Of a DNA stretch of 64,000 nucleotides, positions 4,398 to 26,800 are shown one piece after another. A program made the position numbers and the translations under genes. Under the pieces are notes generated by a model. The model did no database searches. It was given only the letters and a program-made list of their open reading frames with translations, and was not told the DNA's origin. The stretch is from Mesonia sp. K7 (lineage in GTDB: Bacteria > Bacteroidota > Bacteroidia > Flavobacteriales > Flavobacteriaceae): NCBI RefSeq assembly GCF_003233725.1, contig NZ_QKQV01000009.1:1-64000 (forward strand), in the 5' to 3' direction. Position 1 is the first letter of the stretch, and each line of letters starts with the position of its first letter.

Positions 4398-6392
4398 ATG
4401 AAAGGAAAAACTACGATAAAGAAGTACTTGTTGAAATTTATCAAGCCATTCGTGAAAAACTATGTGCCCAGGCCTTATATTTTCACTATTGATGTTTTAC
4501 TTTCTTTTATAGCGGCCCAGTCTTCCTTTTACTTGATCAACTCCGTCAAAACAAATCCTGAAATACTCACGCTCACCTGGCAACTGTTTACCATCGTAGC
4601 TACCCAAGCTATGTATTACCTTATTTTTAAATCTTTTGCCGGTTTGGTGAGGTATTCTAGTTTTAAAGATGTCATTACACAACTCAAAGTGACCACCGCT
4701 GCGGTATTTAGCCTCTTAATCATCAATAGGATTTATTTCTTAACACAGGCAGAGAAGCTTATTTTAGACGCAGGGATCATTGTCTATGGTTTTATTGCTT
4801 TTTCGTTACTCTTTTTCTTTCGAGTGATTGTCAAACGTATCTACAAAGCCATCAATGCCAATAAAAACTCTAAAATGGCTTATATTTTAGGAACCGATCG
4901 CTATGACATTGCCATGGCTGAAGGCTTGATTTCTGAATTTTCTGATGCTTTTAATATTGTGGGGTTTATCAACACAAGCGACAAAAAAATGGGCAACCGA
5001 ATTCATGGCTTACCTATCTACAATATCCATCAGATTAAAAAATCTTCCAGTTCCAGTATAGATGCGGTGATTGTTAGGGAAGAGAAGATTGAAATTCTTC
5101 GGAATAAAAATAGCCAGTTGTTTGCTGAACTTTTAGAATTGAAATATAAAATTTTAAAACTCCCTAAGCCCGAAGATTTATACAATAAAAAATCGATTTC
5201 TAAACTCAAAGAGATTAAGATTGAAGACCTATTACAACGGACGCCCATTAGTTTAGACAAAAGAAAGCTCTTCAGTTTATACGCCAATAAAACTATTTTG
5301 GTGACCGGAGCTGCAGGGTCTATTGGAAGCGAAATTGTACGACAGCTTATTCCTTTCCAACCCAAGTGCATTGTTTTGGTCGATCAAGCCGAAACCCCTT
5401 TGCATGAGCTTTCGGTTAGCTTAGATAAAGATTTTCCGGAGCTTAATTACACTAAAGTCGTCGCCAACGTAAGAAGCAAGAAAAGAATTCGTGAAGTTTT
5501 TGAAAAATTTCACCCTGAAGTAGTTTTTCACGGAGCAGCCTATAAACATGTTCCCATGATGGAAGACAATCCTATAGAATCGCTAAGCGTCAACTTCCAT
5601 GGCACTAGAAATTTGGCGGAGCTTGCCGAAGAATATCATATCGAAAGGTTTGTGTTTGTGAGTACCGACAAAGCCGTAAACCCAACCAACATTATGGGCG
5701 CTTCGAAGAGAGCAGCCGAAATCTACATCCAGTCTTTGGCGAGTAAAGAAACCCAACAAACCACTTATATTACCACTCGCTTTGGGAATGTATTGGGGTC
5801 TAATGGTTCTGTGATCCCTCATTTTAAAAAGCAAATAAAAAACGGAGGACCGGTTACGGTAACGCATCCCGATATCACCCGCTATTTTATGACCATCGAC
5901 GAAGCCTGTCAACTGGTCTTAGAAGCCGGAGCCATGGGAAAAGGTGGTGAAATTTATGTGTTTGATATGGGCTCACCCATAAAAATCATCGATTTAGCCA
6001 AACAAATGATTCGTCTGTCTGGTCTGGTTCCTAATGAGGATATCAAAATTGAATTCTCAGGTTTAAGGCCCGGTGAAAAACTGTACGAAGAGTTATTGGC
6101 CGATATTGAAAAAACATTACCTACCCACCACAAGAAAATTATGATTGCTCAGGCAACACATACCTTTACAGCCTCTAAAAACAACCTACTCTCAAACTTA
6201 CTCCAACATGTCAAGTTAAATGATTTTGAAAAAGCAGTACTTTGTTTACACGAACTAGTACCCGAATATACTCCAATTGACGTGAATGACTTTCGTTTTG
6301 ATGAAGCCAAAGCTAAGATTTTATGCCAAGATGACCTTAACGGTAAGGTCTATGCAAAGCCAAAAAATTTCCCTACCAAAAAGGTATCTTAA
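4398..6392 (+). CDS. Membrane-anchored nucleotide-sugar 4,6-dehydratase (CapD/WbpM/PglF family)
   Basis: This 664-residue protein has about four N-terminal transmembrane helices (residues 20-160). A CoA-binding-like Rossmann region follows (AYILGTDRYD), then a C-terminal SDR catalytic domain with the NAD motif GAAGSIGSE, a DQAE segment and a STDKAVNPTNIMGASK active site. The active site has Met-x3-Lys in place of Tyr-x3-Lys, as is known for the long membrane-bound dehydratases of this family. The family converts UDP-GlcNAc-type sugars to 4-keto-6-deoxy intermediates for surface glycans or protein glycosylation. It sits divergent from the polysaccharide export operon, which supports that role. 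The exact sugar cannot be told. Confidence 0.92.
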   Translation: MKGKTTIKKYLLKFIKPFVKNYVPRPYIFTIDVLLSFIAAQSSFYLINSVKTNPEILTLTWQLFTIVATQAMYYLIFKSFAGLVRYSSFKDVITQLKVTTAAVFSLLIINRIYFLTQAEKLILDAGIIVYGFIAFSLLFFFRVIVKRIYKAINANKNSKMAYILGTDRYDIAMAEGLISEFSDAFNIVGFINTSDKKMGNRIHGLPIYNIHQIKKSSSSSIDAVIVREEKIEILRNKNSQLFAELLELKYKILKLPKPEDLYNKKSISKLKEIKIEDLLQRTPISLDKRKLFSLYANKTILVTGAAGSIGSEIVRQLIPFQPKCIVLVDQAETPLHELSVSLDKDFPELNYTKVVANVRSKKRIREVFEKFHPEVVFHGAAYKHVPMMEDNPIESLSVNFHGTRNLAELAEEYHIERFVFVSTDKAVNPTNIMGASKRAAEIYIQSLASKETQQTTYITTRFGNVLGSNGSVIPHFKKQIKNGGPVTVTHPDITRYFMTIDEACQLVLEAGAMGKGGEIYVFDMGSPIKIIDLAKQMIRLSGLVPNEDIKIEFSGLRPGEKLYEELLADIEKTLPTHHKKIMIAQATHTFTASKNNLLSNLLQHVKLNDFEKAVLCLHELVPEYTPIDVNDFRFDEAKAKILCQDDLNGKVYAKPKNFPTKKVS

Positions 6393-6453
6393 ATACTATT
6401 TGATGAGATCTTTCATTTTAAAAATAAAATTTTTATCTTTTTTAGAAAATTTA

Positions 6454-7985: not shown

Positions 7986-8303
7986 TTACAACAACTGATC
8001 GATCGCTTGGGTATAAGTATCTTTTGGCGAAACACCTACTTGTCTTCCTACCAACTCTCCTTTGTTAAAAACCAAAACGGTCGGGATGTTGCGCACGCCG
8101 TATTTTGCCGCAAACTCTTGGTTAGCATCTACATCTACTTTTCCTACCACCGCTTTACCATCGTATTCCTTACTGATCTCATCAATGATTGGCCCCACCA
8201 TTCTACAGGGTCCACACCAAGCAGCCCAAAAGTCTACCAATACCGGTTTGTCGCTATTTAATACTGTTTCTTCAAAGGTTGCGTCTGTTATTTCTAAAGC
8301 CAT
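7986..8303 (-). CDS. trxA: Thioredoxin
   Basis: This 105-residue cytoplasmic thioredoxin has the redox motif WCGPC at residues 29-33 and the cis-proline loop in NIPTVLVF. Length and fold landmarks (FWAAWCGPC, KVDVDAN) match typical TrxA. It reduces protein disulfides using electrons from thioredoxin reductase. It is monocistronic, with its own terminator and a candidate TATTTTTG -7 element on the minus strand at 8333-8340. Confidence 0.97.
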   Translation of the reverse strand: MALEITDATFEETVLNSDKPVLVDFWAAWCGPCRMVGPIIDEISKEYDGKAVVGKVDVDANQEFAAKYGVRNIPTVLVFNKGELVGRQVGVSPKDTYTQAIDQLL

Positions 8304-8332
8304 TTTATTTTAATTTTTAATTTTATCTACTA

Positions 8333-8340
8333 CAAAAATA
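8333..8340 (-). promoter_or_regulatory. Candidate -7 element of trxA
   Basis: The minus strand reads TATTTTTG, fitting TAnnTTTG, 29 bases before the trxA start codon. No good -33 element is visible. Confidence 0.45.
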
Positions 8341-8478
8341 CATAATATATTTCTTTTCTGAAGACTTCTCATATTATAAAGCTCAATAAGTATATAAGGG
8401 TTTTTTATTAGTTATTGTAATAGAGAAATGATTTTTGTTTAATTCTCGTTGCTTCGTGTGATTTCGCTTTGCGGAATT

Positions 8479-8522
8479 GTATCGAGAAGTATTTCAAAGG
8501 CTAAAATTCTTATTCTCGATAC
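8479..8522. repeat. Dispersed repeat with 10-bp perfect terminal inverted arms
   Basis: GTATCGAGAA (8479-8488) and TTCTCGATAC (8513-8522) are exact inverted copies enclosing 24 bases. The inner sequence matches the repeat at 3966-4006. It lies in the 290-base spacer between trxA and dnaE, which otherwise has no gene. Confidence 0.65.
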
Positions 8523-8594
8523 AAATTTTCCTCTTGAAAAGAGTAAAATTCACTCGAATTGACAGAATTTTATCAAAATACGCAGCGGGTTAAT

Positions 8595-11500
8595 TTAGTT
8601 AATTCTATACTGCAAACTTTCCTCGTCTAAGCTTTCTAACAATTCTTTACATACATTTACCTTTTGTTTGGCACTTTGCATCTGCAACTTCAGTTTTTCT
8701 TTGCGTTCATAGACCAAAAAGTTGAGCGTATGATTGCCTTTATGCTGTTTGATTAAAGTATTCAGATTGTCAATTTTTTCATCTTTTAACTTGTTGACAT
8801 CTATTTGTATGGTAATCTTTTTGGATAAACTTTCCATCACCTCTTGTAATTGTTTAAACGAATTAAACTGAATTCTCGGAGCTCTCTTGTTTCCGCTTTT
8901 ATCAGTATAACCTTCTTTGATATAGGCTTTGATATGCACAAAAGTACTAGGTACCAAAAAGTGCCTAAACTTTAAGTATTCTTCCCCAAAAATCATAAAC
9001 TCACAACTATCTTCATAATCATCTACCGTAAATTTTGCCCAACCTTTCCCATTTTTTGCAATGCGATGTTCTACCCCAGAAATCACGCCTCCCAGTGAAA
9101 GTTCTCTATTGATATAAGGCTCCAAGTTTCTAAAATGTTGTAATGTGGCATTACAGAAATATTTCAATTCGTTTTGGAAATCATCCAACGGATGTCCCGA
9201 AATATAGATTCCTACCACTTCTTTTTCTTTTTTGAGTTTTTCCATGGTTGCCCATTCTTCACAAGGAGGAACTTGCGGCTCTGGAATTTGCACATCACTG
9301 CTTTCGCCGAAAAGGCTTACTTGAGAAGAATTCTGACTTTCTTGGTATTTTGCCGCATATTTGATCACTTTTTCTAGAAACGGAATCCCATCGCCGTCGT
9401 CATGAAAATATTGTGCGCGATGAGTAGCTTTAAAACAATCGAATCCACCGGCAAGGGCAAGATTCTCAAATGCTTTTTTATTGGCGGCCCGCAAATCAAT
9501 ACGTTTGGCCATATCAAAAATAGAACGGTAATTGCCATCTTTCTTACGGGTTTCAACTATAGTTTCTACGGCTGCTCCGCCAACCCCTTTGATCGCTCCC
9601 ATTCCGAAACGAATCGCATTGTCTTTATTTACCGAAAATTTGTAAAACGATTCATTCACATCTGGCCCTAAAACCGGTAGTTTCATACGCCTACATTCTT
9701 CCATAAAGAAAGTGACATCTTTGATGTTATTCATATTGTTGGATAACACCGCCGCCATGTATTCTGCCGGGTAATGTGCTTTGAGGTAAGCGGTTTGGTA
9801 GGCTATCCAAGCATAGCAAGTCGAGTGTGATTTATTGAACGCATAACTTGCAAAAGCTTCCCAATCTTTCCATATTTTTTCCAGCACATCACGTGGGTGT
9901 CCATTTTTCTCTCCTCCATCTAAAAACTTAGGCTTGAGTTGTTCCAACAAATAGAAGATTTTTTTACCCATGGCCTTTCGCAATACATCGGCTTCACCTT
10001 TGGTAAAACTTGCCAGTTTCTGCGAAAGCAACATTACTTGCTCTTGGTAAACTGTAATTCCGTAGGTTTCTTCCAAAAATTCTTCCATAGCGTCAAGGTC
10101 GTAGGTAATCTCTTGGGTGCCATTTTTTCTAGCGACAAAATCGGGAATATATTCCATCGGACCAGGCCGGTACAAGGCATTCATGGCGATAAGATCCTCA
10201 AAAACCGTTGGCTTCAGCTCTCGTAAGTGTTTTTGCATTCCGGGTGATTCGTATTGAAAAATCCCAACGGTTTCTCCTCTTTGGAAGAGTTCGTAAGTTT
10301 TTTCGTCATCTAAGGGAAAAGTTTCTGGATCTAATAAAATGCCATGTTTTGCTTTGACAATTTTGACGGTGTCTTTGATCAGTGTAAGCGTTTTTAAACC
10401 CAAAAAGTCCATTTTAAGCAGTCCTGCACTTTCTACCACGCTGTTATCAAACTGGGTGACATACAAGTCGGAATCTTTGGCGGTTGCCACTGGAACATAA
10501 TTGGTAATATCGCTTGGGGTAATGATCACACCACAAGCATGAATACCCGTATTTCTTACCGAGCCTTCAAGTATTCTCGCTTGGTTTACCGTTTGCCCTT
10601 CGAGGTCATCTTGTTCAGACAGGTTTTTGAGTTCGTTGATTTTTTCGACATCTTCACTTCTGAATTTCGATTGTACTTCTTTATCGCTTAACGCGAAAAT
10701 CTTATACAATTTCGACATATCGGGTACCAACTTGGCAATTCTATCGGCATCTTGAAGCGGTAAATCGAGTACTCTTGCGGTATCCCTAATAGATGATTTA
10801 GCAGCCATCGTACCGTAAGTAATGATTTGCGCTACTTGATTGGCACCGTATTTTTCGATGACATAATCCATGACCTTACTTCTTCCTTCATCGTCAAAAT
10901 CGATATCGATATCGGGCATACTCACACGATCGGGATTGAGAAAACGCTCAAAAAGCAAATCGTACTTAAGCGGATCGATATTGGTAATCTTCAAGCAATA
11001 GGCGACCACACTTCCCGCCGCCGAACCACGACCCGGACCAACCGAAACGCCCATCTTTCTGGCTTCACGAATAAAATCCTCTACAATTAAAAAGTAACCC
11101 GGATAGCCTGTGTTTTCAATCACCGAAAGCTCGAAGTCGATTCGATCTTTAATTTCAGGCGTGATTTCGTTGTAGCGCTGTTTGGCACCTTCATAAGTAA
11201 TGTGGTTTAGAAAAGCATTCTCTCCTCTTTTCCCACCGTCTTTTTCATCTTCTTCCGATTGAAATTCTTCTGGGATGGTAAATTTTGGTAATAAAACGTC
11301 TCTCGAAAGCTGGTAAACCTCTATTTTATCGACAATTTCTTGGATGTTGGTAATGGCTTCTGGCAAATCTTTAAACAAAGATTTCATTTCGTCGGAAGAC
11401 TTAAAATAATACTCTTGATTGGGCAAACCGTATCGGTAACCACGACCGCGACCAATGGGTGTAGCTTGTTTTTCGCCATCTTTTACACACAACAAGATAT

Positions 11501-15216: not shown

Positions 15217-16227
15217 TTAATACCCTATGATTAGAGCTGCGCTTAGCATATTTCCATTAGCATTAGAGTTTTCAAAAATAGAGTTTAAGTGATACCTTAT
15301 GTTAAGTTTTAACGGCCCATAACCTGCATAAGCACTTAATCCGTAAAGAAAATCTTCTGTGTTATACGGCCTTTGAATAGATTGCCTCACTGTCTCTCCT
15401 TCGTCTTCGTATTTAAAACTTTGTGAAAAACCTATTTTCACTCCTAAAAATCCTCCTATTCCGTAATTCCAATCGCTATTTAAATCATACATAGCGCGAT
15501 CTTCTGAATAATCAATTTTTGTTTTCCCAAATTCAAAATGTACAGGAACAACCAAATTTACAAGACTAAAACTTGATCTATCTAATTCTATCGGCGATTC
15601 TACCAATTCTGCTTGATTGGCTTGGTTTACAAAAATTTTACTGTCTTTAATTCCAACTATATTACTCGTAAGCTCAAGACCATAGTTTAATCTATATTCT
15701 GGAGATGCTCTTGAAAAAACCGTTGTAAATTTTACACCTGCAAAAAAATTAAACCCAACATTTTCATAAGCATCCTGTGATTGATTAGCAACCGTGCTAA
15801 TTCCTAAACCAACATAGGTATTTGGAAAAAAAACTCTTGGTATGGAATCTAAGGCAGACATTTTTTTGGTATCGGTCAGAACAGCACCTATATCTATATA
15901 AAAATCTTGCGCCAGGCTCTCACTTTGGTTTCTTTTAATTAGATCTATATTCAAATCGATTAAATCATATTGATTTTCAATATTCATCGCGTGTAATTTT
16001 GCTGCCTCTTGTTTAAGTTCATCAGCTTTTTCTTGACTTATTTCTCTAGCTTCTAAGCGTTCATTTATTGTTTTTACTTTAAGTTTCAGTTTTTCTTTTT
16101 CCAGTTTTTCTACCGTCTCTTTTTGAGCTTGCAATTCTTCGATTTTAATTTGAGCTTTAGGTTTTTCTACTTGTGACCATAAAACTGATGAGGTTAACAA
16201 AAATGTTATAAAGAATATTTTTTTCAT
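15217..16227 (-). CDS. Predicted outer-membrane beta-barrel protein with coiled-coil N-terminus
   Basis: I do not recognise a named family. The 336 residues start with a signal peptide (MKKIFFITFLLTSSVLWSQ). A charged coiled-coil stretch at about 22-85 is rich in Lys and Glu. Alternating hydrophobic/aromatic strands follow up to the end, which reads AALIIGY with a terminal aromatic as in outer-membrane barrels. It lies 37 bases after the anti-sigma-like gene and shares a terminator, so it is probably co-transcribed with the ECF sigma factor. It may be a target, or a sensor of envelope state. Function is inferred from position only. Confidence 0.6.
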   Translation of the reverse strand: MKKIFFITFLLTSSVLWSQVEKPKAQIKIEELQAQKETVEKLEKEKLKLKVKTINERLEAREISQEKADELKQEAAKLHAMNIENQYDLIDLNIDLIKRNQSESLAQDFYIDIGAVLTDTKKMSALDSIPRVFFPNTYVGLGISTVANQSQDAYENVGFNFFAGVKFTTVFSRASPEYRLNYGLELTSNIVGIKDSKIFVNQANQAELVESPIELDRSSFSLVNLVVPVHFEFGKTKIDYSEDRAMYDLNSDWNYGIGGFLGVKIGFSQSFKYEDEGETVRQSIQRPYNTEDFLYGLSAYAGYGPLKLNIRYHLNSIFENSNANGNMLSAALIIGY

Positions 16228-17582: not shown

Positions 17583-18563
17583 TTACTTTTTTCTGTCGAT
17601 GACATAGTTGATCATCGTCACAAGTGATTCTTTATAAGGCGAGTCTGGGTATTTTTGAAGAATCTCTGAGGCTTCTTGTTGGTAGGCTTTCATTTTTTTG
17701 ACCGCGTAATCCAATCCGCCTTTTTCTTTTACAAAAGTGATGACCTCTTTGACTCTTTTAGAATTTTTATTGTGGTTTTTGACAGAATTGATGAGCCAAC
17801 TTTTTTCTTTAGCATCACAATTATTCAAGACATAAATCAACGGAAGGGTCATTTTTTGTTCTTTGATGTCGATACCTGTTGGCTTGCCAATTTTTTCTTC
17901 GCCATAATCAAACAAGTCATCTTTGATTTGGAAAGCCATGCCGATGAGTTCACCAAACTTTCGCATCTTTTCGACGTCTTTAGAAGCTGGTTTTACCGCT
18001 GCAGCACCCAAACTGCAACAAGCCGCAATGAGCGTGGCTGTTTTTTGGCGGATGATTTCGTAATATACTTCTTCGGTGATATCGAGTCGTCTTGCTTTTT
18101 CGATTTGTAAAAGTTCGCCTTCGCTCATCTCGCGTACGGCTACCGAAATAATTTTGAGCAAATCGAAATCGTCGTTATCGATAGAAAGCAACAAACCTTT
18201 AGACAATAGAAAATCACCTACCAAGACGGCAATTTTGTTTTTCCATAACGCATTGATCGAGAAAAACCCGCGACGTCGATTGCTATCATCCACCACATCA
18301 TCATGCACCAAAGTGGCAGTGTGTATGAGCTCTATGACCGAGGCACCACGATAGGTTCTGTCGTTGACTTCGTTGTTGTTACTGATCATTTTAGCCACCA
18401 AAAAAACAAACATCGGGCGCATTTGTTTGCCTTTACGGTTCACCACATAATGGGTAATACGGTTGAGCAATGCCACGCGGGAAGACATAAAAAGATGGAA
18501 CTTTTTTTCGAAAAGTTCCATCTCGTGGGCTATGGGTTGTTTTATTTTTTCTATTGGCTTCAA
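17583..18563 (-). CDS. ispB: Polyprenyl diphosphate synthase
   Basis: The 326 residues carry the first Asp-rich motif in LVHDDVVDDS and the second in QIKDDLFDYG, with GKQMRPMFVF near the N-terminus. The enzyme extends an allylic diphosphate with isopentenyl units in trans, most likely making the side chain of menaquinone. Chain length cannot be predicted with confidence. Its start lies 12 bases after the stop of the phosphatase-sulfotransferase fusion gene, so the two could be co-transcribed, though their functions are not obviously related. The assignment to IspB rather than another trans-prenyl synthase is by length and phylum habit. Confidence 0.88.
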   Translation of the reverse strand: MKPIEKIKQPIAHEMELFEKKFHLFMSSRVALLNRITHYVVNRKGKQMRPMFVFLVAKMISNNNEVNDRTYRGASVIELIHTATLVHDDVVDDSNRRRGFFSINALWKNKIAVLVGDFLLSKGLLLSIDNDDFDLLKIISVAVREMSEGELLQIEKARRLDITEEVYYEIIRQKTATLIAACCSLGAAAVKPASKDVEKMRKFGELIGMAFQIKDDLFDYGEEKIGKPTGIDIKEQKMTLPLIYVLNNCDAKEKSWLINSVKNHNKNSKRVKEVITFVKEKGGLDYAVKKMKAYQQEASEILQKYPDSPYKESLVTMINYVIDRKK

Positions 18564-18575
18564 GATACAAGAATT

Positions 18576-21128
18576 TTATTTGACCTCTTCTACTTTATTT
18601 CGATAAAGTGATTTATCAACACATTTTTCCATTGCCTTTTTATTTAAATCTTTTCCTATGAATGATTCAACCTTTTTGATTTCATTCTGAGGATTTTCCA
18701 AAACATTTTTGTAATCTATATATATTAATTCTACCCCGGGTTGTTTTTCTTTCCAATGATCCACAAACTCTAATTGCTTATAGAACGAGTTGTACATACT
18801 CACAGAAATAGTTTTTTTATCTTTACCTATCATTTTTTGTTGTGATAATAAAACTTCATCAATATCTCTTTTCATAAAGATAATTTTGTACCTGTATTTT
18901 GGGTCTAAAAATTTTAAAAGCGGAGCAACAACCTTTAAAGATTTATTTTGAGCTTCACTTAGCCAAGAATTATCCTTATGCAAACTCATTACTTTTTCAT
19001 ATTCATAATAACCTTTAGGATTTGAGTGGTCTGCTTTTCGCTTACCATCAGTTAAAGTATCTATACCACCTTTGTCCATCATTTGCATCATTAAGGAGGT
19101 TCCAGATCTAGGCAAACCTGATACTATAGTAATCTGATTATCCCAACCTTTACTTGCTGATTTATCTTTAAGGTTTAAAGGCTTATTTATTTTTTCCACA
19201 ACATTCTCTATTGCCTTTTCTACTTTGGAATAAGTTTTTGGTTTTAACCTAGATGCTGTTTCATAGGCTATCTTAGCATTTTCTAAATCTCCTAATTTTT
19301 CTAGTGCTCTTCCTAATGTGTAATGAGCTATAGAATTGTACTTTACTAGTTCAATAGCTGTTAAAGCATATTCTGCAGCCTCTTCATATTCTTTTAAATC
19401 TATTAAGTTTTCTGCAATGGCTACATGATATTTAGATTTTCCAGACTCTATCTCAATTGCTTTTTCAAAAGCTATTTGAGCCGCATCAAAATTATTTAAT
19501 GCATTTCTTAAAACACCTATCTTATACCAAAGCTCAGCATTGGGTCTTTTAGTTTTGCTCTGCTCTACCACATCTTCAAGCACCTTAAGGGCTTTCAATG
19601 GTTTTCCATTACCTTGTAATATTTCTGACTCAATAAAATATAAATTATAAGTTACTTCGGTTTTTGATTTTTTTAAAAGGTTAAAATAGTTTTCTGCTTT
19701 TTCAAAGTCTTTTTCTTTTAAATAGATACTTATTAGATCCATATAAAATGGTGCCTTATCTTGCTCATCTTCATTGATTAAGTCTAACAATATTTCTTTA
19801 GCATTTACCATATCCTTTTTCCCTATATAAACTCGAGCTAGATTATGTTTTAAATCACATTTAGTTTTTTTTACAGCTTTCTCTATCTTTCCGTCTGGCT
19901 TTTCGATATAACCCAATTCTATTAACTGATTAAGGGTTTCCTCATCAGAAAGCGTATCACTTTTCTCTTCACGGTTTTTTAGTTCTCCAAAATCCCCTTC
20001 TATTTTGTCCCAACTGTTAACATATTGAATTTTACTTTTTGAATCTTTAAAAATATCAAGAGCAACATTTCCATCCATGTCCTTGCCTATAGGTAGGTTA
20101 AAGTGATATAGAATTGTAGGTGCTACATCAATTAAGCCTAAGCCATAAACCTTCTCATTTTTTTTAATATTGGGGCCGCTCGCTACAAAAATTCCAAATT
20201 GACGATGGTCCATCGCAGCAGCAGCTTGGACTTTAGGCATCTTAAGCATTCTTTTATGACCAGATTCAAACCCATGGTCAGACATTACCATGACTGTTAC
20301 GTCTTCTCCGGCTAAATCTAAAAGCCTTTCTAGCATCATATCCTGAAAGCGATACGCTCCATTTACTGCCTCTTTATATGTTTTATACTGCTGATCAGTA
20401 ACTCCTTTCAATTGAGGAGGATGATACTTCATATACGCATGGCAAAAATGATCAATCATATCATAATAGATGGCCATAAAATCCCAATCACTTGTTCTCA
20501 ACAGTCTTGTAGCTGCATTGTGAACAGATACATTCTCTGAAATTATTTTTGCTGTAGGCACAAGCCCCTTATTTTTTTCTTGATCTACTAAAGCCGCATT
20601 GGGAATAAAGGGTAATACATGTTCACTTGTTATTTCATGAGGAAACATTTTTAACTCTTTAAACTCTTTCAGTTTTTCTTTCGGATAAATAGCATCATCT
20701 GGAATAGGCTGTTGCTTTTTAGGGTCACCTGTAACTTTTTGAAATTTATCTGAAACTACCGTCCCATTTATAGGCTCTGCGGGATAACTTGGCCACCAAC
20801 CCACAACGTTGCTCTTTAGTCCTTGGTTATGAAATATGTTCCATAACGCTCTAGTCTTTCTAGCGGTAACTGTTATTGGTCTTATGCCAGAATTATCATC
20901 AAGAGGTTCTATAAAGCCTAGGACTCCATGCTTATCTGGGGTTTTCCCTGTAGCTACAGAAGTCCACAACATTGGGGAAAAGGGTGGATTCATGGTACTC
21001 ATGTTTCCATAAACCCCGTTTTCTATAATTTTTTTTAAAGTGGGCATTTGACCTTTGGCAATAAGAGGAAAAATAACATCCCAATCGGCAGCATCCCATC
21101 CTATTAATAACAGTTTATTTTTTTTCAT
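18576..21128 (-). CDS. AlkP-type phosphodiesterase - TPR - sulfotransferase fusion
   Basis: This 850-residue protein has three parts. Residues 1-400: an alkaline-phosphatase/nucleotide-pyrophosphatase fold with GWDAADWD (metal Asp12), a likely nucleophile Ser51 in NPPFSPMLWTS, TGKTPDKHG, DMIDHFCHAY, MSDHGFESGH and MDHRQFG, so the two-metal site looks complete. Residues about 425-650: five or more TPR repeats. Residues 662-850: a sulfotransferase domain with the PAPS phosphate-binding loop GLPRSGTSLMM and a later IIFMKRDIDEVLLSQ. There is no signal peptide, so it is probably cytoplasmic. The substrate is unknown; release and transfer of sulfate or phosphate groups on one polypeptide is a possibility only. 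A 47-residue ORF overlaps its start. Confidence 0.85.
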   Translation of the reverse strand: MKKNKLLLIGWDAADWDVIFPLIAKGQMPTLKKIIENGVYGNMSTMNPPFSPMLWTSVATGKTPDKHGVLGFIEPLDDNSGIRPITVTARKTRALWNIFHNQGLKSNVVGWWPSYPAEPINGTVVSDKFQKVTGDPKKQQPIPDDAIYPKEKLKEFKELKMFPHEITSEHVLPFIPNAALVDQEKNKGLVPTAKIISENVSVHNAATRLLRTSDWDFMAIYYDMIDHFCHAYMKYHPPQLKGVTDQQYKTYKEAVNGAYRFQDMMLERLLDLAGEDVTVMVMSDHGFESGHKRMLKMPKVQAAAAMDHRQFGIFVASGPNIKKNEKVYGLGLIDVAPTILYHFNLPIGKDMDGNVALDIFKDSKSKIQYVNSWDKIEGDFGELKNREEKSDTLSDEETLNQLIELGYIEKPDGKIEKAVKKTKCDLKHNLARVYIGKKDMVNAKEILLDLINEDEQDKAPFYMDLISIYLKEKDFEKAENYFNLLKKSKTEVTYNLYFIESEILQGNGKPLKALKVLEDVVEQSKTKRPNAELWYKIGVLRNALNNFDAAQIAFEKAIEIESGKSKYHVAIAENLIDLKEYEEAAEYALTAIELVKYNSIAHYTLGRALEKLGDLENAKIAYETASRLKPKTYSKVEKAIENVVEKINKPLNLKDKSASKGWDNQITIVSGLPRSGTSLMMQMMDKGGIDTLTDGKRKADHSNPKGYYEYEKVMSLHKDNSWLSEAQNKSLKVVAPLLKFLDPKYRYKIIFMKRDIDEVLLSQQKMIGKDKKTISVSMYNSFYKQLEFVDHWKEKQPGVELIYIDYKNVLENPQNEIKKVESFIGKDLNKKAMEKCVDKSLYRNKVEEVK

Positions 21129-21258
21129 TCTTTTTTCTTTCTTTTCTTATTTTCTTTTTCCACTCTGTAAAAACAACATCACCAGCTGCTAAAAGACCCA
21201 ATGAACTTTCTATAGGTATATCCTTTATATCGATTATTTTATATTTTTTTTTATCCAT
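21115..21258 (-). CDS. Small conserved-looking protein, 47 residues
   Basis: The frame begins ATG at 21258 and ends TAA at 21115, overlapping the start of the phosphatase-sulfotransferase gene by 14 bases. Translation starts MDKKKYKIIDIKDIPIESS, continues LGLLAAGDVVFTEWKKK and ends in a basic Lys/Arg tail. The non-repetitive core with a LGLLAxGD motif looks like a protein rather than chance. Overlap with the large gene suggests translational coupling. I do not know a function; a small partner or regulator of the fusion enzyme is inference. Confidence 0.6.
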   Translation of the reverse strand: MDKKKYKIIDIKDIPIESSLGLLAAGDVVFTEWKKKIRKERKKNEKK

Positions 21259-21343
21259 ATATTTTTAATTTTAAGCAAAAAACGCTATTTTTAATTTTTG
21301 AAACCTTAAAAGAAAAAAACTTTTAAACAAAAAACAACATATT

Positions 21344-22183
21344 ATGAAAAAAAATGACTCTACTCAACTATCAAAAAAACTCATAAAGTATGGAGCTTTT
21401 TCAGCTGCTGTTCTAGGTGCCTCTACTGCAAACAGTCAAATTATGTATACCGACATAACAGATGAGACTGTTTCTACTGGTAATGTTGCTTTTTTTGACA
21501 TCGATGGTGACGGCACAGATGATTATGCATTTTACGTAGGCAGTTCTCAGGGTGTGGCAAATTTTGCCTTAGCAATTCCTGCATCTGGTGTCACTTCCGC
21601 TGGCCCAGCTTTTAATTCTAATTCTATAGTGGGTGCACTCAACGGAAATTACGCCTATCCTTCTAATTTATCATTTGGGGCTACTATAGATTCAAACAAT
21701 CAAGCTTTTAATGGTCAAGTAGGAACTCTTAATTTTTATGGATGCTATTTTTCTAGCAGTCAATTCTGTGATGGTCAAGATGGTTATGTAGGTCTACATA
21801 TAGATATCGCAGGGCAAACTCATTATGGTTGGGCAAGAATTCAAGTTGCACAGGATGCCTCTACTATTACTATCAAAGATTTTGCATATGAAGCAACAGC
21901 TGGTACGGCTATTACAGCTGGAGATCAAGGCACTGCTTCAGCAGAAAACGAAATATTTAATGGCTTTGATTATTACATCAATAATAACGAATTGCATTTA
22001 TCCTCTGCTACCTCTGCTATTGAAACGGCAACCATTTATGACATTACAGGTAAACAGATACAGAATCTTCAAATAAATAGCAATAACGGAATTGTTAATA
22101 TTGGAAACCTTCAAAGTGGTGTTTATATTGCACAAGCTAATATCGAAGGACAAACCAAGTCTTTCAAGTTTGTAAAGAAATAG
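21344..22183 (+). CDS. Secreted T9SS cargo protein (type A sorting domain)
   Basis: The 279 residues have an N-terminal signal peptide ending near ASTANSQ. The middle domain opens with DIDGDGTDDYAFYVG, a calcium-binding-like DxDxDGxxD pattern, and has a GYVGLHIDIAGQTHYGWARI segment. A C-terminal type A sorting domain follows (AETATIYDITGKQIQ, NIGNLQSGVYIAQ, KSFKFVKK). The sorting domain directs export through the type IX system and cleavage at the cell surface. It is followed by a strong terminator and by a second T9SS gene with a near-identical C-terminus. The role of the middle domain is unknown. Confidence 0.85.
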   Translation: MKKNDSTQLSKKLIKYGAFSAAVLGASTANSQIMYTDITDETVSTGNVAFFDIDGDGTDDYAFYVGSSQGVANFALAIPASGVTSAGPAFNSNSIVGALNGNYAYPSNLSFGATIDSNNQAFNGQVGTLNFYGCYFSSSQFCDGQDGYVGLHIDIAGQTHYGWARIQVAQDASTITIKDFAYEATAGTAITAGDQGTASAENEIFNGFDYYINNNELHLSSATSAIETATIYDITGKQIQNLQINSNNGIVNIGNLQSGVYIAQANIEGQTKSFKFVKK

Positions 22184-22205
22184 TTTAGAAACATAATTTT
22201 TATAG

Positions 22206-22234
22206 AAAAATCCGCTTTAAAAGCGGATTTTTTT
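22206..22234 (+). terminator. Terminator of the first T9SS cargo gene
   Basis: AAAATCCGCTT and AAGCGGATTTT form a GC-centred stem followed by a long T tract. It is immediately followed by the -7 element of the next gene. Confidence 0.8.
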
Positions 22235-22242
22235 TATATTTG
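22235..22242 (+). promoter_or_regulatory. -7 element of the second T9SS cargo gene
   Basis: TATATTTG lies 22 bases before the start codon and directly abuts the upstream terminator's T tract. Confidence 0.6.
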
Positions 22243-22264
22243 GTCAATTAAAAAATAAATTCAA

Positions 22265-23194
22265 ATGAAAAAAATTACTTTATTATTGGTTGCTTTTGCA
22301 GCAACTTTTACGATGAACGCACAAACTAATATATCTTTCGAAGCTTCAGAAGGATACACTTTAGGCAATATTCACAATCAAGATGGCTGGGTAGTTGTCG
22401 GTGACGGTAGCGGTGGCGTTGTACAAAATCAATTGGTCTCTGACGAAGAAGCTTCAGACGGTACATTTTCTTTTAAAATTTCTAGAGAAAGCGCTTTTCC
22501 TCAACAAAGTAGTTTTATTGTTGGAGCCCTAAAAACATTATCTACAACGATTTCAAATACTGCCTCGGTTATGGAATTCGATATGTTCATTAATTTTGCA
22601 GCTGGTGCTGATGGGGTAAATACTGCGGTAAGATTTATTGCAAGTGATGACAGTACAGGCCCTGTAATTGCCTTTCTTGCTGACGGCTCAATATTAGTTC
22701 CAGACGAGGATGCTAATGGAGATTTAGTATTTACTGATTCAGGAGAAGTATGGACTGGTTTAACTTGGTTTACATTTAAAGTAGAATTAGGAACAACCGC
22801 AAAATATTTCCTTAACGGAACTGAAATTTATGATGGTATAAATTTTGTTACTGCTGATTTAAATAGAATTAGATTTGCTCACGATAATGCTGGGACAGAT
22901 GCTCAAGCAAGCTCTGTATACATGGACAATTTAACTTATAGCAATACTGCTTCAAATGATATTAATAAAATCAACAGTTTCACACACTATGTAACTAATG
23001 ACTTATTGAATGTTAAATCAGACAGTACTATCTCTAATATTGATATCTACAACCTAATAGGTCAAAAAGTAAATCAAACTGAAATCAACAACACTAACGG
23101 TCAAGTAAACATTGCTAACCTACAGAACGGTGTTTATGTTGGTCAAGTAACCATCGACGGTCAAACAAAATCTTTTAAATTTGTAAAGAAATAA
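22265..23194 (+). CDS. Secreted T9SS cargo protein, LamG-like
   Basis: The 309 residues start with a signal peptide (MKKITLLLVAFAATFTMNAQ). The central 200 residues (ISFEASEGYTLGNIHNQDGW, SVYMDNLTYS) look like a concanavalin/LamG-type beta-sandwich. The C-terminal type A sorting domain (NIDIYNLIGQKVNQ, NIANLQNGVYVGQ, KSFKFVKK) resembles that of the upstream gene. It is likely displayed on or released from the cell surface; a carbohydrate-binding role is only suggested by the fold. It has its own promoter and terminator. Confidence 0.85.
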   Translation: MKKITLLLVAFAATFTMNAQTNISFEASEGYTLGNIHNQDGWVVVGDGSGGVVQNQLVSDEEASDGTFSFKISRESAFPQQSSFIVGALKTLSTTISNTASVMEFDMFINFAAGADGVNTAVRFIASDDSTGPVIAFLADGSILVPDEDANGDLVFTDSGEVWTGLTWFTFKVELGTTAKYFLNGTEIYDGINFVTADLNRIRFAHDNAGTDAQASSVYMDNLTYSNTASNDINKINSFTHYVTNDLLNVKSDSTISNIDIYNLIGQKVNQTEINNTNGQVNIANLQNGVYVGQVTIDGQTKSFKFVKK

Positions 23195-23222
23195 TTTAAG
23201 GTTTTACTTGATTATATAAAAT

Positions 23223-23253
23223 AAAAAACCCGCCTAAAAAGGCGGGTTTTTTA
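23223..23253 (+). terminator. Terminator of the second T9SS cargo gene
   Basis: AAAAAACCCGCCT and AGGCGGGTTTTTT form a strong stem with an AAAA loop. The symmetry lets it act in both directions, also serving rlmN from the other side. Confidence 0.85.
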
Positions 23254-23313
23254 TTTACCATTTATGTAATTACATACCCCTAAATCCCCTCTTCTTAGAG
23301 TGGACTTTTTTAT

Positions 23314-24360
23314 TTATTGAGAAGATTTATTGGCCAATTGCCCACAAGCGGCATCGATATCTTTTCCGCGAGAGCGACGTACGGTTACCGTAATATGATT
23401 TCGCTCTAAAGCTTTTTGATAGGCTTCGGTCACTTCACCAGCTGCTTGTTGAAACTCACCATCGTCAATCGGATTGTACTCAATGATGTTTACTTTGCAA
23501 GGTATGAGTTTACAAAAATGAACCAAGGCATCTATATCTTCTTTTCTATCATTTATTCCCTTCCAAATTAAATATTCATAGGTTACTTTCTTTTTGGTTT
23601 TCTCATACCAATAGACTAAAGATTCTTTAAGTTCACTTAAGGGAAATGTCTCATTAAAAGGCATAATTTGTGTTCTCACTTCATCTATCGCCGAATGCAA
23701 TGATAAGGCAAGGTTAAATTTTACTTCGTCGTCTGCCAGCTTTTTAATCATTTTAGGGATACCCGATGTAGAAACGGTAATCCGCTTAGGCGACATGCCT
23801 AAACCTTCGGGTGAAGTTATTTTTTCGATAGCTTTAAGCACGTTGTTATAGTTCATCAAAGGTTCGCCCATCCCCATAAACACAATGTTGGAAAGTGGCA
23901 TCTGATTGTACAACCTACTTTCTTGATCGATTGCTACTACTTGATCGTATATTTCGTCAGGATTGAGGTTACGCATTCTTTTTAATCGTGCGGTGGCACA
24001 AAACTTACAATCCAAGCTACAACCTACTTGCGAAGAAACACAAGCCGTTGTTCGTGAAAAGGTAGGAATAAGTACCGACTCCACCGTTAAACCATCGTGT
24101 AACGTGACTGCATTTTTTATGGTCCCGTCATTACTGCGCTGCATCGTATCTACTTTGATGTGGTTGATTACAAAATTGTCTTCGAGCATTTGGCGTGTTT
24201 CTTTAGAAATGTTGGTCATTTCTTCAAAAGAGTGTGCGCTTTTGCTCCACAACCATTCGTAGACTTGATTGCCACGAAAAGCTTTGTCTCCTTGACTTAC
24301 AAAAAAATCACGGAGTTGCTCTTTGGTTAAAGCTCGTATGTCTTTTTTCTCTGGTTTCAC
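23314..24360 (-). CDS. rlmN: Dual-specificity 23S rRNA/tRNA adenine-C2 methyltransferase
   Basis: This radical-SAM methyltransferase of 348 residues methylates A2503 of 23S rRNA and A37 of some tRNAs. The [4Fe-4S] motif CSLDCKFC is present, as are CVSSQVGC, GMGEPLMNY and the C-terminal DIDAACGQL, whose Cys is the methyl carrier. The start is GTG, since homologues have only a few residues before KKDIRALTKEQ. A TATCTTTG element ends just 4 bases before this GTG, so the message may be leaderless. Confidence 0.95.
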   Translation of the reverse strand: MKPEKKDIRALTKEQLRDFFVSQGDKAFRGNQVYEWLWSKSAHSFEEMTNISKETRQMLEDNFVINHIKVDTMQRSNDGTIKNAVTLHDGLTVESVLIPTFSRTTACVSSQVGCSLDCKFCATARLKRMRNLNPDEIYDQVVAIDQESRLYNQMPLSNIVFMGMGEPLMNYNNVLKAIEKITSPEGLGMSPKRITVSTSGIPKMIKKLADDEVKFNLALSLHSAIDEVRTQIMPFNETFPLSELKESLVYWYEKTKKKVTYEYLIWKGINDRKEDIDALVHFCKLIPCKVNIIEYNPIDDGEFQQAAGEVTEAYQKALERNHITVTVRRSRGKDIDAACGQLANKSSQ

Positions 24361-25573: not shown

Positions 25574-26800
25574 TTAGCTTACGGGTATCAGCTCAAAATT
25601 TAGTTTCTGCAATGCTTCCCAAAATTTCGGAAAAGATTTTTGGACCACTTTTACATTTTGTATGGTTAACGAAGTTCTTAAAGCCAACGGAGCGAAAGCC
25701 ATTGCCATTCTATGGTCTTCATAGGTTTTTATCGTGACATCTTCTTTTAGCTTCCGCGGAATTGGAGTAAGTATTAACGATTCTTTATCTATAAGAACTT
25801 TAGCACCAAATTTTTCTATTTCTGCTTTTAACGCCACTAATCGGTTGGTTTCTTTAGCAACCAAAGTTTCTAAGCCTGTAAGTTGACACTCGACCCCTAA
25901 ACCTAGGCAAGTGACTGCAATGGTCTGGGCTAGATCTGGAGTTTGGTTGAGATTAAGTTTGATTTTTTGAGGTAAATCTTTTGAAGCTTTTTCTAATCGA
26001 ATTCCTGTTTCGCCAAACGTAGTTTTTACTCCAAATTGCTCATAGATTTCAACCAATCTGGCATCCCCTTGTAAGCTTTCTTTTTGAAAATTAGGCAACG
26101 TAATTTTAGCACTTTCAGAAAGCGCAACTATACTATAAAAATAAGACGCTGAGCTCCAATCGGGCTCAACCGCAAATCGAGTTGACCTTACTCGAGCTGG
26201 GTAGATTGTAATGTTATTTCCTTCGAAAGAAGTTTTTATTCCGAGTTGTTCTATCAAGCTCAACGTCATTAAAATATAAGGACGCGAAGTAATTTTTCCG
26301 TTAAGGGAAATGGTAAATACGCTATCAAATTTGGTCGCTATCAATAAAATGGCGGTAATAAATTGGCTACTGATATGAGCCTCCATCTCAATAGCATTTC
26401 CTACTATTTTTTTCCCTTTTATCCTTAAAGGTGGAAAACCTTCTTCTCCCAAGCATTGGATATCTGCTCCTAATTTTTGCAACGCATCTACCAAAGGTTG
26501 AATGGGTCGTTGGTGCATTCTTTCGGAGCCTTTTAACACCACTTCTCTATTGTTCTGCGTTGCAAAAAAAGCGGTTAAAAAACGCATTGCCGTTCCGGCA
26601 TGACCGATATTTATTTTATTGCTTTTACTTTTTAAAGCGGTTTGTAAAACTTGGGTATCTTGAGCATCAGACAGGTTTTTTATCTGAACTTCTGGATGTA
26701 AGGCTTGTAAAATCAACAATCGGTTCGACTCACTTTTAGAACCCGAAATATTTATTTCGCCTCTAAGCTCTTTGGGTGTTATTTGAACCCGAAAGTCCAT
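25574..26800 (-). CDS. aroA: 3-phosphoshikimate 1-carboxyvinyltransferase (EPSP synthase)
   Basis: The 408-residue enzyme joins PEP and shikimate-3-phosphate in aromatic amino-acid synthesis. Recognisable parts are GSKSESNRLLILQ, the PEP-binding loop GHAGTAMRFL (NAGTAMRPL in E. coli), SSQFITAIL, EPDWSSASYF and the C-terminal YEDHRMAMAFAPLAL. It is the last gene of a tightly packed array that begins with DAHP synthase/chorismate mutase, so both shikimate-pathway genes may share a transcript. Its ATG directly follows the stop codon of the small membrane protein gene. Confidence 0.95.
   Translation of the reverse strand: MDFRVQITPKELRGEINISGSKSESNRLLILQALHPEVQIKNLSDAQDTQVLQTALKSKSNKINIGHAGTAMRFLTAFFATQNNREVVLKGSERMHQRPIQPLVDALQKLGADIQCLGEEGFPPLRIKGKKIVGNAIEMEAHISSQFITAILLIATKFDSVFTISLNGKITSRPYILMTLSLIEQLGIKTSFEGNNITIYPARVRSTRFAVEPDWSSASYFYSIVALSESAKITLPNFQKESLQGDARLVEIYEQFGVKTTFGETGIRLEKASKDLPQKIKLNLNQTPDLAQTIAVTCLGLGVECQLTGLETLVAKETNRLVALKAEIEKFGAKVLIDKESLILTPIPRKLKEDVTIKTYEDHRMAMAFAPLALRTSLTIQNVKVVQKSFPKFWEALQKLNFELIPVS

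Follow-up and report, generated by a model that had tools for sequence, protein, structure and literature searches.

A conserved bacterial gene module of a small protein, a predicted phosphodiesterase-TPR-sulfotransferase fusion enzyme and, usually, a secreted partner

We analyzed a window of 64,000 nucleotides from Mesonia sp. K7 (positions 1 to 64,000 of contig NZ_QKQV01000009.1, assembly GCF_003233725.1), in which a 47-residue open reading frame (ORF) lies between a gene for an 850-residue fusion enzyme and the gene of a secreted protein. Comparison with related loci gives good support to a conserved module that consists of the small protein, the enzyme and, usually, a secreted protein carrying the motif YTDxxPD (the YTD family). 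The enzyme is predicted to join an alkaline phosphatase (AlkP) superfamily domain of the nucleotide pyrophosphatase/phosphodiesterase (NPP) type, an array of tetratricopeptide repeats (TPRs) and a sulfotransferase that uses 3′-phosphoadenosine 5′-phosphosulfate (PAPS). The function that we favor for this module, which we hold with somewhat less than even confidence, is that a cytoplasmic, PAPS-using complex sulfates the neighboring YTD protein before its export.

The enzyme is encoded on the minus strand (18576..21128), and its ORF (21128..18576) overlaps that of the small protein (21258..21115, also minus) by 14 nucleotides. Three regions can be distinguished, all on the minus strand: the NPP-type domain (about residues 1-380; 19989..21128), a TPR superhelix (about residues 415-648; 19185..19886), and the sulfotransferase domain (about residues 663-846; 18591..19142). 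Each of them matches at least one Pfam family above the curated cut-off. Phosphodiest (PF01663) covers residues 6-297 with E 7.8e-29 and 101.8 bits against a cut-off of 23, TPR families match as well (TPR_8, for example, at 6e-17), and the sulfotransferase is recognized both by Sulfotransfer_3 (PF13469, 42.7 bits against 27) and by Sulfotransfer_1 (PF00685, residues 667-844, 39.6 bits against 22). In an alignment of 65 sequences, comprising the window protein and 64 of the 80 relatives described below, D12, S51, D226xxxH230, D284H285 and H308 of the first domain are invariant; so are G671, P673, R674, G676, T677 and S678 of the PAPS loop (GLPRSGTS) together with R754 and S762, while S675 of the loop is kept in at least 90% of the sequences. 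By homology with NPPs, we take S51 to be the nucleophile, and D12, D226, H230, D284, H285 and H308 to be the metal ligands. Judged by these residues, the active-site signatures of both catalytic domains are complete. A preliminary description of this DNA had placed a complete-looking AlkP-superfamily two-metal site, a TPR array and a PAPS-loop sulfotransferase in one polypeptide.

An AlphaFold model of the enzyme has a mean predicted local distance difference test score (pLDDT) of 89.5, with 12 residues below 50, and a predicted template modeling score (pTM) of 0.82. In a Foldseek search, the TPR part of the model matched designed TPRs and the TPR domain of O-GlcNAc transferase. The enzyme is probably cytoplasmic, because the model starts directly with a strand at residues 5-11, its first structural element, and leaves no room for a signal peptide. 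The same location had been suggested before on the ground that no signal peptide was seen.

The fusion recurs intact. A scan of genome_contigs for relatives of the enzyme gave at least 507 matches, of which the best 80 were kept as loci, a ranking that tilts toward full-length matches; at least 427 further relatives lie beyond these 80. In 80 of the 80 kept loci the whole fusion is free of internal stops, and a full-length collinear fusion was found in 8 of the 98 other relatives searched, in addition to one fragment at a contig edge (G030). Collinear relatives without internal stops rule out a frameshift or a mis-assembly as the cause, and we regard the fusion as a real gene architecture on the strength of these comparisons. 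The sole split variant found, in locus L178, involves no frameshift and is explained by relocation: the L178 enzyme has a C-terminal domain with neither a PAPS loop nor any sulfotransferase match, and a separate 186-residue sulfotransferase, 39% identical to the domain in the window (PF13469, 44.4 bits), stands first in the gene order of sulfotransferase, small protein, enzyme and YTD protein. The predicted sulfotransferase activity is retained within this operon, and the function appears to be maintained, because the decayed domain is matched by an intact separate gene.

Additional links to PAPS come from neighboring genes and from the genome of K7 itself. Adenosine 5′-phosphosulfate (APS) kinase serves PAPS synthesis. 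In locus L097 an APS kinase gene (L097:10547-11140) starts 6 nucleotides past the enzyme match, and in L105 another (L105:7271-7807) lies directly before the small protein; the neighbor ORFs of the other members of the 81-locus set (the 80 kept loci and the window) gave no BLAST match to these two kinases. Neither of these loci revealed a YTD partner, and the supply of PAPS seems to accompany the module there. The K7 genome encodes an APS kinase (E 8.0e-66) and so can supply PAPS. Its contig C12 (30.7 kb) carries this APS kinase and two other sulfotransferase-family genes (5694-6140, 15255-15386, 25874-26515), a group that is possibly a cluster for a sulfated product.

Compared with solved structures by profile, the sulfotransferase domain matched SULT1 (2zpt, E 3.5e-7) and a tyrosyl-protein sulfotransferase (3ap1, E 1.6e-3). 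It has in common with them the PAPS 5′ loop and the residues that bind the 3′ phosphate, but the similarity is low, as these values indicate. D694 and R697 are invariant in all 65 aligned enzymes and were noted alongside K732; purely by analogy, we take these three residues to be candidates for the catalytic base or the acceptor site.

NPP phosphodiesterases (ENPP1, 6wet; Xac NPP, 2gsn) lead the Foldseek list for the first domain (E 3.3e-9, identity 11-15%); further down, at ranks 38-47, come sulfatases and a phosphonate monoester hydrolase. The corresponding profile search of solved structures returned phosphonoacetate hydrolase (3t02) and Xac NPP, with a best E of 2.6e-5. NPP-type enzymes cleave phosphodiesters, and the nucleophile of sulfatases lies in a C/S-x-P-x-R (formylglycine) motif, which is not present at the nucleophile here, where the window sequence from S51 reads SPMLW. 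We favor a phosphodiesterase over a sulfatase because NPPs head the fold list and the sulfatase nucleophile motif is absent; a sulfatase is disfavored on the same two grounds, though the Sulfatase profile (PF00884) scores above its cut-off too, at 37.9 bits against 25 and far under the 101.8 bits of PF01663. NPPs and phosphonoacetate hydrolase have the fold of the first domain and a like set of metal ligands and position of the nucleophile. The window enzyme differs from NPPs in its predicted cytoplasmic location, in its fusion to TPRs and a sulfotransferase, and in its weak similarity to any solved structure.

The most faithful companion of the enzyme is the small protein (21115..21258, minus strand), and this, together with the adjacent secreted family, adds to the preliminary description, which had asked whether the 47-residue ORF recurs. 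In all 80 loci a homologue directly precedes the enzyme (worst E 1.6e-7), as found with a profile seeded with seven sequences, the window's own and six from beside relatives, of which at least two (L007, L009) recur as genes of the tested loci L059 and L063. In 62 loci the stop codon of the small protein lies past the chosen start codon of the enzyme; it precedes that start by 0-30 nucleotides in 6 loci and by more than 30 nucleotides in 12. The conserved core (residues 18-34; 21157..21207, minus strand) has the family pattern SLGLLALGxxGLxxWR; cores were extracted from 79 of the 80 loci, and all 79 share one A, one G and the W. No column of the core holds a conserved Tyr, which occurs at two positions in 17 and 9 of the 79 cores. 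The ratio of nonsynonymous to synonymous differences (pN/pS) is below 1 in 551 of 551 pairs, with a median of 0.44 and a range of 0.14-0.31 in the ten closest pairs, the pairs having been chosen at ≥50% identity, which favors low values. The small protein is under purifying selection.

Whole genomes stand behind 30 of the 80 loci, and in these the small protein is single-copy in 25 and present in two copies in 5. One such additional copy, in genome G514, continues in frame into a 901-residue phosphodiesterase-TPR-sulfotransferase (L176), of which it forms the N-terminus. This fusion is our strongest argument that the two proteins work as a single complex, and because one natural fusion coincides with co-conservation, the small protein probably binds the enzyme. 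Upstream of position 8001 in L061 (Salegentibacter sp. R32), the frame of the small protein is interrupted early by a stop codon and lacks a standard start codon, although its core is intact. In the window, the GC content of the small ORF is markedly low (24.3%).

The small protein falls outside the families with which we compared it: in the members scanned, no Pfam or NCBIfam model scored above its cut-off where scores were shown. Its core resembles the PEP-CTERM tail (PF07589), with a match at E≤0.1 for 8 of the 68 members compared (best 0.0093). However, the core is broken by charged residues, and the protein is free-standing, not a C-terminal tail. We reject the PEP-CTERM identity, since the two matching members among the five scanned reach 15.9 and 12.4 bits against a cut-off of 20.7; the unrelated family FAM165 matches 11 of the 68 about as weakly (best 0.0016). 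An amphipathic helix was also considered and set aside, the mean hydrophobic moment of 0.26 not being distinctive from the 0.23 of shuffled sequences.

The secreted partner in the window (21344..22183, plus strand) is transcribed divergently from the enzyme. Its 279 residues comprise, according to profile, model and Foldseek, a signal peptide with an invariant Tyr (Y16), the YTD strand (Y35), an extracellular beta domain, and a type A sorting tail of the type IX secretion system (T9SS). The tail matches the sorting domain TIGR04183 (38 bits against a cut-off of 23) and the fold of the RemA C-terminal domain. With a profile of the YTD N-terminus, a family member was found near the enzyme in 70 of the 80 loci and in the window; because this profile was built from motif-picked proteins of the same loci, the figure is a count and no independent test. 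We prefer it to a looser one, a cluster of secreted neighbors in 73 of the 81 loci, which also joins proteins that have only the T9SS tail in common. The YTD gene is mostly divergent in flavobacteria and elsewhere mostly downstream on the same strand. Tandem copies occur, with three or more in L066, L073, L077, L089, L092, L098 and L114. Of 97 open frames with the YTD N-terminus, 96 also contain the core domain, the exception being a 39-residue fragment.

Signal peptides normally show no position-by-position conservation. In the YTD family the signal-peptide Tyr is present in 49 of 49 aligned members and in 65 of the 66 profile members (one gap). YTDxxPD marks the start of the mature protein and the first strand of a beta domain that is modeled mostly at pLDDT >90. 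This core domain has no solved relative at E≤0.001, both Foldseek matches being to the T9SS tail, and apart from that tail no Pfam or NCBIfam model scored above its cut-off in the members scanned. The K7 genome holds one YTD-type N-terminus; 13 other matches start at residue 141 or later. In L113, which is labeled Nitrospirae, the partner has no T9SS-like end, and its C-terminus consists of a hydrophobic stretch followed by basic residues; the association of enzyme and partner is therefore not merely linked to the T9SS. YTD open frames range from 213 to 1175 residues, and the long proteins of L061, L068, L072, L073, L076, L091 and L102 (651-1174 residues) have large C-terminal regions without an assigned kind. 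Beside the module of L188 (genome G161) lies a non-YTD secreted protein with a DVDGDNVDDF stretch (8199-9401).

These observations suggest the following sequence of events. The cytoplasmic protein of about 50 residues would associate with the N-terminal phosphodiesterase end of the enzyme, and the TPR superhelix would present a polypeptide to the C-terminal PAPS-dependent sulfotransferase. The YTD protein would be encountered ahead of export by way of its unusual signal peptide with the invariant Tyr, and would then be sulfated; Sec would carry it out of the cytoplasm, and in Bacteroidota the type IX system would put it on display. Possible tasks of the NPP-type domain are to hydrolyze a phospho-bond linked to the reaction or to take a phosphate group off the substrate. 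We favor sulfation before export because the genetic partner is exported with an unusually conserved signal peptide and because the TPR array resembles arrays that present substrates. In O-GlcNAc transferase the TPR array presents protein substrates, and the transferases of O-GlcNAc transferase and SPINDLY modify proteins; both have, like the window enzyme, a TPR superhelix before a C-terminal transferase. The window enzyme, however, has a sulfotransferase in place of the glycosyltransferase, and an extra hydrolase at its N-terminus. We infer that the YTD protein is the substrate, as we do the order of the steps and the role of the phosphodiesterase. A wider proposal, which we regard as doubtful but possible, is that the module represents a novel class of bacterial protein sulfation, in which a constant 50-residue subunit activates or positions the enzyme and the secreted protein is recognized by its signal peptide with the invariant Tyr and sulfated before it is exported. 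Flavobacteria and some other bacteria would in this way display sulfated surface proteins through the T9SS or another anchor.

Several observations weigh against sulfation of the YTD protein. No YTD gene was found in the flanking DNA examined of 10 of the 80 loci; for L071, L090, L097, L101, L104 and L112, with about 8 kb on each side, the absence is real at the threshold used, and the other four have a short flank (L079, 4 nucleotides downstream; L103, 964 upstream; L105, 269 downstream; L110, 3497 downstream). The mature protein has no strictly conserved sulfo-acceptor. Y35 (Y34 in the alignment numbering) is Tyr in 46 of 49 members, Phe in 2 and His in 1, and its conservation may be structural, given its place in the first strand of a confidently modeled domain; these variants and the location in a strand weaken it as a sulfation site. 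Two further Tyr positions (179 and 181 in the alignment) are Phe in 10 and 14 of the 49 members. The enzyme of G161 adjoins a secreted protein that does not carry the YTD motif, and G336 carries the small protein (L186, G336:C17, about 6160-6420) but no enzyme, its enzyme-profile matches being confined to the TPR region. Finally, the hydrolase class is not settled by the profile alone, since PF00884 also passes its cut-off.

The lack of a strictly conserved acceptor Tyr also speaks for the chief rival of YTD sulfation: that the enzyme makes a sulfated, dephosphorylated surface glycan or lipid headgroup in the cytoplasm, with the YTD protein as a coat or binding protein for the product. Bacterial sulfotransferases mostly act on glycans or small molecules, the folds nearest to the first domain are those of NPPs, which are phosphodiester cleavers, and the sulfotransferase and APS kinase genes of contig C12 are in line with such a product. 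Lipid-type neighbors recur as well: of the 81 loci, 20 have a polyprenyl-synthetase-like gene and 6 a fatty-acid-hydroxylase-like one, which in three of them lies within 1.5 kb. However, the synthetase is a border gene that keeps the same place in relatives with no room for the module, no glycosyltransferase or polysaccharide polymerase was recognized among the 25 neighbor clusters listed, and the TPR superhelix suggests a polypeptide partner. We consider glycan or lipid sulfation unlikely, though a serious contender.

The prominence of NPPs in the fold ranks could alternatively mean that the phosphodiesterase domain handles the coenzyme, by clearing the by-product 3′-phosphoadenosine 5′-phosphate (PAP) or hydrolyzing PAPS, which would make the enzyme a self-clearing sulfotransferase for any acceptor. 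NPP relatives act on nucleotide phosphodiesters, and the APS kinase neighbors in L097 and L105 would fit. PAP, however, is a bis-monoester and thus an atypical NPP substrate, free-standing PAP phosphatases exist, and coenzyme handling would leave both the small protein and the YTD gene unexplained. We judge it improbable.

The constant presence of a small ORF beside a sulfotransferase-bearing enzyme (80 of 80 loci, with overlapping genes in 62) raises the idea that the small protein is itself the substrate, a ribosomal peptide that both the phosphodiesterase and the sulfotransferase modify, as RaxST modifies RaxX. But its core offers no conserved Tyr, it occurs in L176 as a domain of the enzyme, and no dedicated exporter was recognized among the 25 clusters listed; the one cluster that we take to be of ABC-ATPase type is present in 6 of the 81 loci, in one of them within 1.5 kb. 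This makes a substrate role for the small protein decidedly improbable. RaxX-RaxST, the bacterial example of protein sulfation found in the literature, is described as a tyrosine-sulfation system of Xanthomonas (PMC4216712, PMC6637879). The present module is alike in that a PAPS-type sulfotransferase is encoded with a small protein and would act on an exported polypeptide. It differs in its small protein, which lacks a conserved Tyr and may even form part of the enzyme, while a separate, larger secreted protein is the putative substrate; in its sulfotransferase, to which TPR and NPP domains are joined; and in that no raxAB-type peptidase/ABC exporter was recognized among the same 25 clusters.

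That an orphan fusion enzyme merely happens to lie beside an unrelated leader ORF, as the patchy occurrence of the module might suggest (a full-length enzyme in 8 of 98 other relatives), is contradicted by the co-occurrence in 80 of 80 and 70 of 80 loci, the purifying selection and the natural fusion, and can be dismissed with near certainty.

In the window, the module occupies an interval between two genes that lie outside it, both on the minus strand and both named from presumed sequence resemblance: a polyprenyl synthetase-like gene (17583..18563) at one border and an rlmN-like gene (23314..24360) at the other. A second T9SS-tailed secreted protein in the same interval (22265..23194, plus strand) is not of the YTD family, and its membership of the module is unproven. 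The rlmN cluster is found in 21 of the 81 loci and the synthetase cluster in 20, the window included in each. The synthetase was found in 56 genomes, and the 30 loci examined comprise that of K7 and 29 others. For 16 of these 29, rlmN is no more than 1.5 kb upstream of the synthetase, too close for the enzyme to fit between them; the DNA examined of the remaining 13 showed no rlmN end, and one of these is G030, with its enzyme fragment at that place. In G002 and G014 the enzyme and the synthetase are on different contigs. Because the synthetase and rlmN lie close together in relatives without room for the module, we interpret 17583-24360 as a variable flavobacterial slot that may contain the module, other DNA or next to nothing, as a result of loss or of local gain. 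A membrane protein gene, presumably fatty-acid-hydroxylase-like, recurs downstream in the 6 loci mentioned above (e.g. L078:11476-12369, L081:3731-4624).

The small protein appears rare but broadly spread. With the large profile it was found in 4 of 395 Bacteroidota genomes, including the orphan of G336 and a match in G470 (L187) that we reject as a false positive, since it falls at the C-terminus of an 832-residue ORF. Outside Bacteroidota, the phylum to which L110 belongs yielded it in 2 of 249 genomes (L110's own and one weak match, E 4.6e-4), and that of L113 in 1 of 8 (L113's own). The enzyme was detected at E 1e-60 in at least 2 of the 395 Bacteroidota genomes, K7 included, with two candidates scored per listed genome. 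The AT-rich look of its gene had been raised as a possible sign of transfer. This did not hold: its GC content of 33.3%, compared with 36.1% for the window, is within the 31.1-41.8% range of thirteen other ORFs, so that recent transfer is unsupported by base composition, and no match on plasmids or phages was found at the limits used. A role as a defense system was likewise rejected, the three module proteins having no match among PADLOC defense families at E≤0.01.

The enzyme classes that we recognize here are known; what appears new is their combination, the small protein and the partner family. In the open literature we found no paper, and in the family databases no model, for the phosphodiesterase-TPR-sulfotransferase combination, the small protein or the YTD family, and the one paper found for COG3379 concerns DNA primases. 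Two kinds of protein are thereby added that have no matching Pfam or NCBIfam model above cut-off in the members scanned, a small-protein family and an extracellular domain. The small protein is so tied to the enzyme that it can turn into one of the enzyme's domains. Protein sulfation is classically a modification of the eukaryotic secretory pathway; a module of this kind, scattered across Bacteroidota, would make the sulfation of bacterial surface proteins directly testable.

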